From Halorubrum sp. PV6 (lineage in GTDB: Archaea; Halobacteriota; Halobacteria; Halobacteriales; Haloferacaceae): a stretch of 64,000 bases of DNA. Under the pieces are notes generated by a model that saw only the letters and a program-made list of their open reading frames with translations, had not been told where the DNA came from and did not search any database. Below are positions 34,477 to 39,390 of the stretch, piece after piece; within the stretch, counting starts at the first letter, position 1, and every line of letters begins with the position of its first letter. The DNA is taken from positions 1,178,001 through 1,242,000 of the forward strand of contig NZ_CP030064.1 in assembly GCF_003990725.2 (NCBI RefSeq), given 5' to 3'. The position numbers were made by a program, and so were the translations under genes.

Positions 34477-36093
34477 CTACCCTTCTCCGACCATCCGGTC
34501 TTCGTCGTCCCACTCGCGCTCGCGCAGCTCGTACTTCTGGATCTTGCCGGTCGCCGTGGTCGGCAGTTCGTTCACGAACTCCACCTCACCGGGCGTCTTG
34601 TAGGTCGCGACGCGCTCGCGGACGAACGCCTTGATCTCTTCCGGCGTTGCGCCCGCGTTGTCGGCGTCGCCGCTCTCCGGGACGACGAACGCCTTCGGTG
34701 TCTCGCCCCACCGCTCGTCGGGCGCCGGGATGACCGCGACCTCGGAGACGACGTCGTGTTCGAAGAGCGTGTCTTCCAACTCGATAGAGGAGATGTTCTC
34801 GCCGCCGGAGATGATGATGTCCTTCTTCCGGTCCTGGATCGAGACGAAGCCGTCCTCGTCGACGACGGCCAGGTCGCCCATGTGGTAGTAGCCGTCGACG
34901 CGCTCCGAGAACGCCGCCTCGGTCTCCTCGGGCTTCTCCCAGTAGCGGTCCATCACCTGGTTCCCGCGGACGATGATCTCGCCGATCGTCTCCCCGTCCG
35001 CGGTGACGTCGTTGCCGTCGTCGTCCACGACGCGCACGTCGGTGCCGAGGAAGCCGATCCCCTGCGTCTTCTTGACCGCGAACCGGTCGTCGGAGTCGGC
35101 GTCGTAGTGTCGCTTCGCGTCCGAGGTCGTCACGAGCGGCCCCGTCTCGGTCGCCCCGTAGACGTGTTTGAGGTCCCACCCGAACTCCTCTTCCACGGTG
35201 CGGATCGTCGTCTCGGGGGGAGCCGCGCCGGCGGTGGCGGCGCGCACGTCGTTCGCGCCGCTCGTCTCGCCGCCGTGTTCGGCGTAGTGGTCGCCGAGCA
35301 TGTTGAGCACGGTCGGCGCCGCACAGAAGTACGACACGTCCTCGTTCCGGATGCGATCGAAGACGGACTCGACGTCGACGCCGCGGGTACAGACGTGTCG
35401 GGCCCCCATCCCGGTGATCGCGTAGATGTGTCCCCAGCCGTTGACGTGGAACATCGGCAGCGTCCAGAGGTACACGTCGTCGTCGGTGATCTCCAGGTGC
35501 ATCGCGATGAGGTACGCGTGGAGCGTCTCGGCGCGATGGGTCCGACAGACCCCCTTCGGATCTCCCGTCGTGCCCGAGGTGTAGTTGATGGTGATGACGT
35601 CGTCTTCGTCCATCTCCGGGCGCTCGTAGGCGTCCGGGTCCGCCTCGTCGAGCGCGTCGTCGAAGGACTCCCAGTCACCCTCGACGGCGTCGACGTCGTT
35701 CGTGAGGAAGGTCTCGGTCGGCACCTCGTCGCGGATCGCCTCGACGTTCTCGGCGTACTCGGCGTCGGCGTAAATCACGTCCACGCCGGCGTCAGAGAGC
35801 ATATACGAGAAGTCGTTCGGCGTGAGTCGGTAGTTAAGCGGGGTGTGGATCGCGCCGACCTGCATGGTCCCGTAGGCCGCCTCCAGATGATAGTGGGTGT
35901 TCGGGTCCAACACCGCGACGCGGTCGCCCTTCTCGACGCCGCGCGCCTGCAGCGCGGCGGAGAACCGGTCGGCGCGCTCGCCGAGTTCGGCGTAGGTGTA
36001 CCGCGTCCCGTCCGTGGCGAGGACGGCCTCCTCGTCGGCGTAGTGCCGTCGAGCCCGGTCTAAGAAATCTGTCGTCAGTAGTGGCTTTCGCAT
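34477..36093 (-). CDS. AMP-binding acyl-CoA synthetase (fatty acid-CoA ligase type)
   Basis: 538 residues. ANL-superfamily motifs: INYTSGTTGDPKGV (ATP phosphate loop), YHMGDLAVVDEDGFVSIQDR (A7/A8, hinge D), DIIISGGENISSIELE, and PTTATGKIQKYELRE with the catalytic lysine. It activates a carboxylic acid to acyl-AMP and then CoA thioester; probably medium- or long-chain fatty acids. The ATG is 25 nt after a TATA box (36115-36123), so the message should be leaderless. Confidence 0.9.
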   Translation of the reverse strand: MRKPLLTTDFLDRARRHYADEEAVLATDGTRYTYAELGERADRFSAALQARGVEKGDRVAVLDPNTHYHLEAAYGTMQVGAIHTPLNYRLTPNDFSYMLSDAGVDVIYADAEYAENVEAIRDEVPTETFLTNDVDAVEGDWESFDDALDEADPDAYERPEMDEDDVITINYTSGTTGDPKGVCRTHRAETLHAYLIAMHLEITDDDVYLWTLPMFHVNGWGHIYAITGMGARHVCTRGVDVESVFDRIRNEDVSYFCAAPTVLNMLGDHYAEHGGETSGANDVRAATAGAAPPETTIRTVEEEFGWDLKHVYGATETGPLVTTSDAKRHYDADSDDRFAVKKTQGIGFLGTDVRVVDDDGNDVTADGETIGEIIVRGNQVMDRYWEKPEETEAAFSERVDGYYHMGDLAVVDEDGFVSIQDRKKDIIISGGENISSIELEDTLFEHDVVSEVAVIPAPDERWGETPKAFVVPESGDADNAGATPEEIKAFVRERVATYKTPGEVEFVNELPTTATGKIQKYELREREWDDEDRMVGEG

Positions 36094-36114
36094 CGTTTTA
36101 TCACTATTTATGAT

Positions 36115-36123
36115 CTATAAAAG
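36115..36123 (-). promoter_or_regulatory. TATA box of the acyl-CoA synthetase gene
   Basis: CTTTTATAG on the minus strand, centred 25 nt before the ATG at 36093. Apart from it and the IR at 36301-36320, I see nothing in the 36094-36386 spacer. Confidence 0.6.
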
Positions 36124-36300
36124 CGTTTGCGGCCGGCGCAAAGTGGACGCCGTCGCCGGGCTCCCGTCTCTGCGCGTCGGTCTCGCGAGCGGTCCCCTCG
36201 CAATCCGTGGGATACGACCGCGGTGCGTGACGGCGAGCAACGGATCGGCCGGGGGCGTCTCGGCCGTCGAGCCGCCCTGACGCCCGGCAGATCGCCCGCC

Positions 36301-36320
36301 GATGCGTATATAAACGCATC
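36301..36320. promoter_or_regulatory. Perfect 7-bp inverted repeat around a TATA box, before tRNA-iMet
   Basis: GATGCGT (36301-36307) and its exact reverse complement ACGCATC (36314-36320) flank ATATAA. The AT-rich centre is the likely TATA box of tRNA-iMet, giving a leader of about 50 nt. The symmetry could be a binding site for a dimeric regulator that blocks or helps TBP. Confidence 0.5.
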
Positions 36321-36386
36321 GTGGACGAATCGCATACGGGCGACGGGATCAGAACCCTTAACAGTTCCACGCGGTTTTGCTATGAT

Positions 36387-36461
36387 AGCGGGATGGGATA
36401 GCCAGGAGATTCCGCCGGGCTCATAACCCGGAGATCGGTAGTTCAAATCTACCTCCCGCTA
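36387..36461 (+). tRNA. Initiator tRNA-Met (CAT)
   Basis: 75 nt. The acceptor stem AGCGGGA (36387-36393) pairs with TCCCGCT (36454-36460); discriminator A at 36461. The weak first pair A1-U72 is the initiator mark. The anticodon stem-loop is CCGGG-CTCATAA-CCCGG with anticodon CAT and the three G-C pairs that direct initiator tRNA to the P site. The T arm reads GGTAGTTCAAATCTACC. No intron, no encoded CCA. Confidence 0.96.
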
Positions 36462-36585
36462 CTTCTGGACGAACGCCACACTCGAAGCCGTGCGGCCGGC
36501 GTTTCCCATCGCCTCTCTCGTTATCCGTCGCCGTCCCGATTCGAAACCCGGAAGCGATTTCCGTCGCGCCGTCGTTCCCTTCGGC

Positions 36586-37197
36586 ATGGATTACGAATCG
36601 AGCCTCGACCGTGCGATGGAGGAGGTCCCTGACCTCGGTGGCTCCGACGAACGGCTGTCGGTTCCCGACCCGGAAGCGCAGAAAGACGGCGCGTTCACTC
36701 GGCTGACGAACCTCTCGGCGGTCGCCGACGCCCTGAGTCGCGACCCCGAACACGTCCACTCGAAGATCCAGCAGGAGCTCGGTACCGCCGGCCAGTACGA
36801 GGACGGCCGCGCCCGATACAGCGGGAACTTCCGCGAGCGCGACTTCCAAGCCGCCATCGACTCGTATATCGAGTCGTTCGTCACCTGTTCCGAGTGTGGG
36901 CTCCCCGACACGCGGCTCGAAACCGAGAACCGCACGCCGATGCTCCGCTGTGAGGCCTGTGGTGCCTTCCGACCGGTCGCAAAGCAGAACACCTCGAACA
37001 CCCAGCGCCAAGAGGAGGCCGTCGAGTCGGGGACCACGTACGAACTCGAGATCGTCGGCACCGGGCGCAAAGGCGACGGCGTCGCCGAGCGCGGCGAGTA
37101 CACCATCTTCGTTCCGGGCGCACAGGAGGGCGAGACGGTGAAAGCCTACATCAAGAACGTGTCCGGAAATCTCGCGTTCGCTCGTCGCGAAGACTAA
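36586..37197 (+). CDS. eif2b: Translation initiation factor aIF2 subunit beta, with TRAM domain
   Basis: 203 residues from the ATG at 36586 (MDYESSLDRAMEEVPDLGGS). Core aIF2-beta is followed by a zinc ribbon with C101, C104, C122 and C125 (CSECG, CEACG). From about residue 145 a TRAM domain (YELEIVGTGRKGDGVAERGE, AYIKNVSGNLAFA) is appended, as in haloarchaeal homologues. aIF2-beta is part of the trimer that carries Met-tRNAi; it lies 124 bp after the initiator tRNA gene. Confidence 0.92.
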   Translation: MDYESSLDRAMEEVPDLGGSDERLSVPDPEAQKDGAFTRLTNLSAVADALSRDPEHVHSKIQQELGTAGQYEDGRARYSGNFRERDFQAAIDSYIESFVTCSECGLPDTRLETENRTPMLRCEACGAFRPVAKQNTSNTQRQEEAVESGTTYELEIVGTGRKGDGVAERGEYTIFVPGAQEGETVKAYIKNVSGNLAFARRED

Positions 37198-37403: not shown

Positions 37404-38438
37404 TTATTCCAACAGGCGGTACACGTTCGCCTCGTACGTCTCGCGGACCTGATCGCCCCAGTTGTGCGTGTACGTGTCGATCACGTCGTCGGCGACGTCG
37501 CCGCGGAGGTACTTGACGACCCCGCGGTCGCCCGTCCGGTCGCGGAGATGTGTCGTGAAGAAGTGCCGAAAGTAGTGTGGCGTGACGTTTTCGGCGGCGC
37601 CGCCGCCCGTCCGATACCACCCCGCGTCGCGGGCGTATCGCTCGACGACGTGTCTGACCGCTTGCGGGTCGAGCCGCTCACCCCACCCTTCCGCGGTCCC
37701 GACGAAGAGCGGCTCCGCAGGTGACGGGCTGTCCGGTCGCACGGCGAGCCATCGCTTGAGTGTCCGCGCCAGCTCGTCGTCTATCGGTATCACGGTAGCC
37801 CGTTTCCGCTTGTTCGATGCGGTCCGGACCTCCCCGTGTAACTCGGCGCCGACCGTCGCGTCGGGCGTCACGTACAGCGAATTCGGGCGTTCGACGAGCG
37901 CTGGTCGCGTCCCCAGATCGAAGGTCGCCCTCGCCTCCTCGTCGTCGATGGCGAGGTCTCTGAGATCGAGGTTACACAACTCGCCGACCCGCATCCCGGT
38001 TTTTAAAAGCGTCACGACGAGCGCCCGATGGAGCGGATGCCGGATGCCGGCGACGAACTCGCGCATCGCCGGGATCGACACGTCTCGGCGGGCCGGGTCC
38101 TTGTCGATGGTCTCGTCCATCTCCTCCATGACGAGGGTCATGGGATTGCCCTCGAAGACGCCGACCTCGGTCATGTAGCCGTAAAACCGGTGGAGATACG
38201 CCGCGTAGGTCGCCACCGTGCTCTCGGCCACGTCGCCGCGGAGCGAGTGGACGAACGCCATGCAGTCGCGGTGCGTGGCCGCTCGGGGCTCCGTCTCTCC
38301 GTCCAGAAACGACTCGAACTGCCGGAGGACTCGCTGGTAGGAGCCGCGCGTCCGCTCGGTCTTCCCGTGGTAGGTGAGGTCTTCGAGGAAGTACGCGATC
38401 GAGTCGTCGACGTCTGCGGGAGCGCGCGTGCTACTCAT
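37404..38438 (-). CDS. Tyrosine recombinase / XerC-D-like integrase
   Basis: 344 residues from the ATG at 38438. An N-terminal SAM-like core-binding domain (about 1-110, SYQRVLRQFESFLDGE, YAAYLHRFYGYMT) precedes the catalytic domain: R150 (LKTGMRVGELCNL), H288 and R291 (TPHYFRHFF), and nucleophile Y323 (DTYTHNW). The usual second His/Trp, which should precede the tyrosine by nine residues, is Asp314 (LRGDVADDVI). The start overlaps the stop of a small RHH gene by 8 bp. It may resolve dimers or act on a mobile site; no flanking att duplication was found. Confidence 0.87.
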   Translation of the reverse strand: MSSTRAPADVDDSIAYFLEDLTYHGKTERTRGSYQRVLRQFESFLDGETEPRAATHRDCMAFVHSLRGDVAESTVATYAAYLHRFYGYMTEVGVFEGNPMTLVMEEMDETIDKDPARRDVSIPAMREFVAGIRHPLHRALVVTLLKTGMRVGELCNLDLRDLAIDDEEARATFDLGTRPALVERPNSLYVTPDATVGAELHGEVRTASNKRKRATVIPIDDELARTLKRWLAVRPDSPSPAEPLFVGTAEGWGERLDPQAVRHVVERYARDAGWYRTGGGAAENVTPHYFRHFFTTHLRDRTGDRGVVKYLRGDVADDVIDTYTHNWGDQVRETYEANVYRLLE

Positions 38439-38811
38439 CGACCAGCGTGTACCCCCCTTCTCGGCCGTTGTACCTGACGCGGTTCTGATCCTGGAGCGAA
38501 TCGAGCGTGTCCTCCAACTGCCCCTCGAAATCGTCGAACACCGCATCGACGAGCGCGTCCCACGACAACACCCCGTCAGCGAGTGCCGCTTCGACCCGTC
38601 GTTCGATGTCGTTACCCCTGGGGTCAGACCCCGAAGGATCGGGTTCGACGGGGTTACTGTCTCCCTCGATGGAGAACCCCCGTCTCCCGGCCTGTACCAT
38701 CGTTCTGACGAACTCGCTCTGTGACATCCCCAACTCGTCTGCGTGGTCTTGCCAGATAGCCTTTTGATCGGCCGGGACGTACGTCTTCACTGAACGGCGG
38801 TCGTCGCTCAT
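38431..38811 (-). CDS. DUF5805-like ribbon-helix-helix protein, paired with the recombinase
   Basis: 126 residues from the ATG at 38811 (MSDDRRSVKTYVPADQKAIW). The N-terminus reads as a ribbon (RRSVKTYVP) followed by two helices (QKAIWQDHADELGMSQSEF, VRTMVQAGRRGF), typical RHH DNA-binding. The rest (RRVEAALADGVLSWDALVDA, LQDQNRVRYNGREGGYTLVD) may be a second winged unit. I recall the family as DUF5805. It overlaps the recombinase start by 8 bp, so the two are translationally coupled. A 10-bp inverted repeat is upstream. An ATG further upstream (38874) is possible. Confidence 0.75.
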   Translation of the reverse strand: MSDDRRSVKTYVPADQKAIWQDHADELGMSQSEFVRTMVQAGRRGFSIEGDSNPVEPDPSGSDPRGNDIERRVEAALADGVLSWDALVDAVFDDFEGQLEDTLDSLQDQNRVRYNGREGGYTLVDE

Positions 38812-39390
38812 CTCTCGAATCTGTGTTCTCCGGGCCACCACTTCAATTTGACCCATATTTCGGGATAAGGTCACTTATACTGGTCTGTGGGACTGTTATT
38901 CGACCGGTGTAATACGCATATCTGTTTTTATAGCACTATATTTTCTCGCTGTTAGTGCTATATTTCTGGATATACTATTGTTCCCCGTTTGCCGGCTCCC
39001 GCTCTTACTGACTGGTCACGTTGGCGACGGCCGGCCGGGTTCGCGAGGAGCGAGGATATCGTAGTCGTCGTCTGGCGGGGTGCCCGCTACCTGGCTACGT
39101 GCGGGACACGCCAAGCGGCTGTGTCCGGGTACCGACTGAGCGTTCGGACGCCCTCGACGTCTAGACGTTGTCTCTCACCATGGAGGGACTCACCCGCCGT
39201 CTTCGACGCCTGAGTGCGAGTTCTCGGCGTGTTGACGGCGTTGTGACGAGCGTTTGTCTCTTGAGAGACGAATACCGTTAGACGCGGACAGCGCTGCACA
39301 CGTCGTTTGAGCCGACTCGGCGCCACAGGGGAGCAAAGTATCGGTCGAACGCGATCAAATAAACCATATGCCGCGATAGAAACTGCGGAC
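38812..39390. other. 579-bp intergenic region, unusually AT-rich in part
   Basis: This gap lies between the start of the RHH gene and the 3' end of the HisG-like gene. The part near 38860-38990 is AT-rich and holds the RHH promoter (TATAAG on the minus strand, about 38872-38878) and an inverted repeat at 38929-38962. The rest, 38990-39390, has average GC, a short palindrome CGTCTAGACG (about 39158-39167) and GTCTCTTGAGAGAC (39256-39269). No ORF has coding-like bias; no tRNA, SRP RNA or RNase P RNA motif was found. Confidence 0.6.
38929..38962. repeat. Perfect 10-bp inverted repeat, 14-nt spacer, upstream of the recombinase pair
   Basis: TATAGCACTA (38929-38938) and TAGTGCTATA (38953-38962) are exact reverse complements separated by 14 nt. 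Located about 120 bp upstream of the RHH start. It may be a binding site for the RHH protein, or a recombination site. Confidence 0.7.

Follow-up and report, generated by a model that had tools for sequence, protein, structure and literature searches.

The archaeal XerA/dif systems of Pyrococcus abyssi, Thermoplasma, and Sulfolobales serve here as the main comparison systems. In archaeal XerA/dif, the dif site is present in a single copy, and in Sulfolobales it is also found near the gene (PMC2958812). The dif site of P. abyssi reads ATTGGATATAA TCGGCC TTATATCTAAA, and the inverted repeats that flank it may bind a partner; the same paper foresaw that archaea lacking xerA may have recruited another recombinase (PMC2958812). 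For the haloarchaea, a survey has described Arch1, a group of simple tyrosine recombinases of Halobacteria that is class-specific, Xer-like, and marked by a short insertion, and its authors suggest that Arch1-type enzymes may compensate for Xer (PMC8138268, Smyshlyaev et al. 2021). A review of Haloferax volcanii lists 12 XerC/D-like genes, the role of which it leaves undetermined, and reports that four of the 12 have been deleted with viability kept (PMC7776575). No archaeal equivalent of FtsK is known, according to the accessible text of a further paper (PMC8371274). Our search of the open-access literature turned up nothing on a dif site in haloarchaea or on the ribbon-helix-helix (RHH) partner, and DUF5805 is unmentioned in the open-access papers found on DUF5805 or on haloarchaea. 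This suggests that the dif-like site and the RHH partner described below are new, the use of Arch1 as a replacement for Xer having been suggested already. We put at roughly 60% the probability that a haloarchaeal gene pair and the site in front of it act as the counterpart of Xer in these archaea, a Xer/dif module that carries its own partner.

The window, that is, the whole stretch of 64,000 nucleotides analyzed, covers positions 1178001-1242000 of contig C1 of a haloarchaeal genome of 3.04 Mb (G000), and the named loci nearest to it are from Halorubrum. All features described here lie on its minus strand and are numbered from its first letter. A tyrosine recombinase of 344 residues with a core-binding SAM-like domain and a catalytic domain is encoded at 37404-38438, and upstream of it, at 38431-38811, lies the gene of an RHH protein of 126 residues with a C-terminal winged-helix-like domain (DUF5805, PF19121). 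The two frames share 8 bp at 38431-38438, ATGAGTAG, in agreement with the overlap that had been predicted, and the overlap would couple the two genes translationally.

The recombinase contains the Pfam Phage_integrase and SAM-like N-terminal domains, and its score of 68.3 bits against PF00589 (cut-off 27.1) places it inside the tyrosine recombinase superfamily. Its AlphaFold model (mean pLDDT 83.5) has its best structure match in P. abyssi XerA (4a8e; VIA-align Z 20.2, rmsd 12.8, 256 residues aligned), and it scores 114.2 bits, below the curated cut-off of 220, against the profile of canonical archaeal XerA (NF040815). R150, the catalytic lysine K210, H288, R291, and Y323 are invariant in all 129 aligned rows (128 distinct loci and the query), and R150, H288, R291, and Y323 stand at the positions claimed for them in the original prediction. 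That prediction also placed Asp314 (codon at 37497-37499) at the HIII position, where His or Trp is usual. HMMER alignments with solved XerA (4a8e, 5hxy) and XerD (1a0p) do place D314 opposite the His of the LGH motif, which we take to be the HIII residue. The Asp is fixed in the haloarchaeal orthologues: all 129 aligned rows have it, as do 217 of 220 orthologue rows, with gaps in the other three. The HIII column of other haloarchaeal tyrosine recombinases holds Asp in 15 and His in three of 18 distinct sequences, a small sample chosen by similarity to the query or to XerA, with partial rows and gaps dropped. Since other haloarchaeal recombinases also have it, Asp314 is not specific to the query enzyme and was discarded as a special feature; it looks like a habit of haloarchaeal enzymes, as judged from these sequences, and any role for it is putative. 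By its match to the description of the family, the query is probably a member of Arch1.

The RHH gene is conserved at its place throughout the class. An RHH frame lies immediately 5' of the recombinase in 153/153 loci with a recombinase match above 250 bits, a set that comprises 128 distinct loci, many of the entries being one genome fetched twice, and from which six fragment or duplicate loci had been excluded beforehand. Twenty of the 153 loci had been picked by their DUF5805 match, two of them (L172, L173) being paralogues, so that linkage in these 20 holds partly by construction. The question of whether the RHH gene is always upstream is thereby answered for the loci sampled, and even the deep-branching loci L138 and L140-L142 keep the partner in diverged form (30-44 bits). 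A single ORF of Halolamina pelagica CDK2 (L110:5593-7032) comprises both the RHH and the recombinase sequence, which form separate frames in a second strain (L115); the single ORF is either a natural fusion or a sequencing error. On the RHH side of the pair, three genes recur in 52, 42, and 41 of 99 related loci. On the 3' side of the recombinase, the acyl-CoA ligase and aIF2-beta-like neighbors of the window (34477-37197) recur in none of the 99. A break in synteny thus adjoins the recombinase on this side, the opposite flank being often conserved, and a conserved context on both sides is accordingly not claimed.

The partner itself is assigned to DUF5805 by a score of 93.4 bits (cut-off 28.5, E 1.1e-26) over residues 57-121. 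Its N-terminus shows an RHH-like pattern, with a NikA-like match below threshold, and its structural model, of modest confidence (mean pLDDT 71.2), has helices at residues 14-27 and 31-43 followed by a C-terminal H-H-H-E-E arrangement. A structure search with this model gave no match at E <= 0.001. The RHH and winged-helix labels of the small protein are therefore predicted ones, drawn from sequence pattern and model, and that it steers the recombinase, as originally proposed, is likewise something we infer.

A conserved element just 5' of the RHH gene was first seen when 15 upstream regions of the Halorubrum group were aligned. In the window, it is a dif-like dyad at 38853-38890, with half-sites that conform to the class consensus CTTATCCnGAAnTnTRG on both sides of its center. 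Its core, ATAA-GTGACC-TTAT at 38865-38878, has the spacer at 38869-38874; counted upstream from the start codon of the RHH gene, the core covers nt 54-67. The gene pair stood as it had been described; the dyad, which is the stronger finding, lies outside the region 37404-38811 to which that description was confined. A second, wider inverted repeat, ATATCCnG...TAG ... CTA...GATAT, was recognized by eye at 38918-38973 in the alignment of the 15 loci and the window, and it possibly provides accessory sites.

Across genera, the element takes the form GATAA-N6-TTATC. A best score of 9 or 10 out of 10 was obtained in 91 of 126 distinct loci, compared with 0.56% of mononucleotide shuffles; the best match could come from any position in 220 nt, and loci differ in their anchor residue, so that the distances are spread. 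A looser criterion, in which symmetry adds to the score, is passed by 133 of 151 loci across genera (two further loci lacked an anchor and lie outside this count), and 131 of the 133 dyads lie 159-195 nt upstream of a fixed RHH motif, a range of 37 nt. The 18 failing loci include the four deepest-branching ones (L138, L140-L142), three with a dyad farther upstream (L102, L136, L137), one with a dyad that was mis-anchored (L078), and three with CTTA-N6-TAAG-like arms by eye (L081, L122, L134). After removal of duplicates, 108 sites were kept for information content, which amounts to 1.6-2.0 bits per base in ATAA and TTAT, 1.0-1.1 at the outer positions of the spacer, and 0.3-0.5 at its four inner positions, the arm values being inflated by the choice of sites by their arms and the spacer values being free of this. 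The arms are thus near-invariant or symmetrically changed, as in GATTA..TAATC (Halolamina, Saliphagus, and others) and AATAA..TTATT (several other genera), and the spacer varies. The half-sites extend outward to a TxTRG box on both sides, by an excess of left-right matches that ignores relatedness, and symmetry across the full 11-bp arms is weak class-wide. Asymmetry at the center of the spacer was dropped as evidence, shared ancestry of one spacer being sufficient to explain it. With its inverted arms and 6-bp central region, the dyad has the layout of a Xer/dif site.

The spacer occurs in both orientations. Among 955 locus pairs with at least 70% protein identity, which are not independent of one another, 240 have the same spacer and 219 its exact reverse complement, and none has the plain reverse or the plain complement. 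Four spacer types flip in this way: GTGACC/GGTCAC, GTGACT/AGTCAC, GAGTCC/GGACTC, and GTGCCC/GGGCAC. A tree was built from 45 genes of the Halorubrum group, all but one of them labelled, and only 12 of its 42 inner branches have strong support. It requires a minimum of 12 changes of orientation among the 44 sites, a figure close to the mean of 14.6 given by shuffled labels; 52 of 500 shuffles reached 12 or fewer. Two successive exchanges between antiparallel sites, combined with heteroduplex repair, would turn the spacer and leave the arms in place. In one pair of very close sister genomes (L064 and L036), the spacers between the ATAA/TTAT arms are unrelated, AGTCAC and GAATCC, which is a wholesale spacer replacement.

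These observations bear on the strongest alternative, in which the dyad is an operator through which the RHH protein represses its own operon and the recombinase acts at another chromosomal site or substrate. Autorepression is common among RHH proteins, the core of the dyad sits at the distance upstream of the RHH start codon given above, and its arms change symmetrically, as they do in protein operators. An operator, however, would not call for the inner arms and 6-bp spacing of dif, and it leaves unexplained the 219 pairs with exact reverse-complement spacers and the lack of any plain reverse or complement. We consider this explanation doubtful as a full account, although a serious one, and operator and recombination roles of the dyad could coexist.

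A second alternative ascribes the flips to replication accidents, namely template switching at a short hairpin with no part for a recombinase. A loop flip elsewhere in the same loci gives it a precedent: near position 3530 of L041, the loop of a GC-rich hairpin, CGCC/GGCG, is inverted relative to its relatives, which is likely a natural loop inversion outside the site. As a control, hairpins with five-base stems were compared within the same loci. Among those with four-base loops, 71 flipped pairs were found, 63 at stems of the ATAAG/GATAA type and eight elsewhere, of which five trace to L041 and three look like doubtful pairings; for six-base loops, the figures were 11 at site-type stems and two elsewhere, both at that same locus. 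At least 12 changes at one 5-bp stem thus lie far above the hairpin background, which may be underestimated since the control hairpins probably lie mostly in coding DNA. Template switching is therefore an improbable source of the two orientations.

The site occupies essentially a single place in each Halorubrum genome. The exact pattern ATAAGNNNNCTTATCC occurs in 37 of 52 of them with one clear match away from the operon, and the reversed pattern, used as a control, matched twice in the same 52 genomes. The off-operon match (G064 C2:1027350) differs from the site in its spacer, shows no outer boxes, and was judged to be due to chance. A 60-position sequence model recovers the site in 49 of the 52 genomes and in all 46 near-complete ones, the three genomes that miss it being 79-82% complete. 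Its best match lies beside the recombinase gene in 46/46 genomes in which the place of the gene is known, G632, G633, and G637 having been outside the gene-location search. Most genomes also give a second match, at this place but on the opposite strand, because the site is a dyad. Beyond these, the model gave two off-locus matches (E 0.08-0.1) and, no more than about 130 bases from the site, two weak ones, under strict filters that may lose weak copies. In Halorubrum, the genus to which this count applies, the site is thus present once per chromosome. The site of the window has no match in plasmid or phage records. A search of viral contigs with one 16-mer of the site gave six matches, and the surrounding DNA examined held neither a recombinase nor an RHH homologue; the matches lie in stretches of 39-57% G+C and were set aside as chance matches rather than mobile carriers of the site.

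The recombinase is a core gene and is not mobile. Orthologues (E <= 1e-20) are present in 387 of 391 Halobacteria genomes, in 376 of 377 near-complete ones, and in all 86 genera, and a minority of the genomes hold additional, mostly weaker, matches. The gene is lacking in four genomes (G315, G316, G366, G381). One of these, G316, is a single contig (C1) and 98% complete, and lacks the recombinase, DUF5805, and a canonical XerA; its 16 XerA-like matches are all below the cut-off. In the phylum, a profile search (1e-25) of 246 genomes matched 43, all in the order of the window, and the 20 genomes listed among the 203 without a match include none of that order. DUF5805 exceeds its cut-off in 144 of 145 Halobacteria genomes and in 52 of 294 phylum genomes, all of the window's order, with three weak matches outside it. 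XerA exceeds its cut-off in one of 145 Halobacteria genomes and in 47 of 196 phylum genomes, all outside that order. No relative of the recombinase was found in 50,697 phage records at the limits used, or in viral contigs in a scan for close relatives only. Two of 72,556 plasmid records hold one. Both are replicons about 1 Mb in size that are recorded as plasmids, one from Natrinema thermotolerans (CP031304.1:777564-778583, L260) and one from Halomarina (NZ_CP119993.1:694118-695122).

SNJ2-type integrases use tRNA-Met, and a tRNA-Met gene lies near the pair. Integration there was rejected, since the 3' end of this tRNA gene has no second copy within the window. Together with the distribution, this bears out the earlier remark that no mobile element surrounds the pair. 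Diverged second-copy pairs of DUF5805 and recombinase genes occur at L172, L173, L234, and L235, the last on a 21.6-kb contig (G034:C4); L172 and L173 are among the loci that fail the dyad criterion, and the DNA in front of the L234 and L235 copies showed no GATAA-type site. That the query is a domesticated integrase of an old mobile element with a role other than dimer resolution, such as regulating the operon that encodes it or integrating unknown elements, is in keeping with these paralogue pairs and with the small operon partners of SNJ2-type integrases (PMC8371274), but we regard it as unlikely given the near-universal presence of the gene in the class, its absence from the phage and viral collections searched, and the lack of a convincing second site in the Halorubrum genomes.

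In the Xer/dif module that we favor, the recombinase would bind both ATAA/TTAT arms of the linked site, cleave at the borders of the 6-bp spacer, and exchange strands between two copies of the site. Such exchange would resolve chromosome dimers, which are expected to arise from homologous recombination among the many chromosome copies of a cell. The RHH/winged-helix protein would be the dedicated partner, helping in assembly or direction and probably also binding the outer dyad (TGGGA boxes). As the site sits in the promoter region of the operon, the RHH protein may at the same time autoregulate it. The orthologue may be among the four dispensable XerC/D-like genes of H. volcanii, which would count against a Xer role.

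A bolder extension, which we hold only tentatively as possible, is that XerA has been replaced by a self-contained module of three parts: an Asp-type Xer, a single dif site ahead of the operon that encodes this Xer, and a conserved RHH/winged-helix protein, which would bind the outer boxes of the site and take the role of bacterial FtsK. Strand exchange would then tolerate sites that pair in antiparallel fashion among many chromosome copies, and this would leave the 6-bp spacer in either orientation. For dimer resolution in haloarchaea, with their many circular chromosome copies, the analysis points to one gene pair and a short site, which are open to direct testing as a candidate for the so far missing system by which joined chromosomes are parted, with the RHH protein as the suggested partner in a system for which no archaeal FtsK equivalent is known.

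Of the described systems, the Arch1 survey covers what is probably the family of the query enzyme, and its accessible text gives neither a partner nor a target site (PMC8138268). The SNJ2-type operon, in which IntSNJ2 is accompanied by Orf2 and Orf3, also joins a haloarchaeal tyrosine recombinase to small proteins (PMC8371274). Its partners are coiled-coil and MarR-like proteins (PMC8371274), whereas the partner of the query is an RHH/DUF5805 protein encoded upstream. SNJ2-type integrases are carried on mobile elements, while the query is a core gene and is not encoded by an integrated mobile element, a distinction drawn without sequence comparison with IntSNJ2.

XerS/difSL and XerH/difH likewise combine one recombinase with a dif-like site beside its gene, in most species in the case of XerH (PMC2731167). 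The difSL and difH sites lie near the replication terminus (PMC2731167), whereas no GC-skew switch was seen at the query site over 400 kb in three genomes, haloarchaea having several origins and weak skew. Both XerS and XerH are bacterial, and to our knowledge neither has an RHH partner.

The closest parallel is XerA/dif, which also relies on a two-domain tyrosine recombinase, XerA being the nearest solved fold to the query. The P. abyssi dif and the haloarchaeal site share the same ATAA/TTAT inner arms and a 6-bp spacer (PMC2958812). In a comparison made after the site had been discovered, P. abyssi dif agreed at 15-16 of 28 bases with the site in each of three Halorubrum genomes, a degree of match equalled by 21-93 of the 799,946 28-mers within 400 kb, the best elsewhere reaching 17-18; among the 1-4 occurrences of ATAA-N6-TTAT per 400-kb region, the site alone attains it. 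The query enzyme differs from XerA in having about 43 residues before the catalytic Lys, compared with eight in P. abyssi XerA, and the haloarchaeal system as a whole is set apart from XerA/dif by the Asp at the HIII position, the conserved RHH partner, the location of the site ahead of the recombinase operon, and a spacer that is found either way around.
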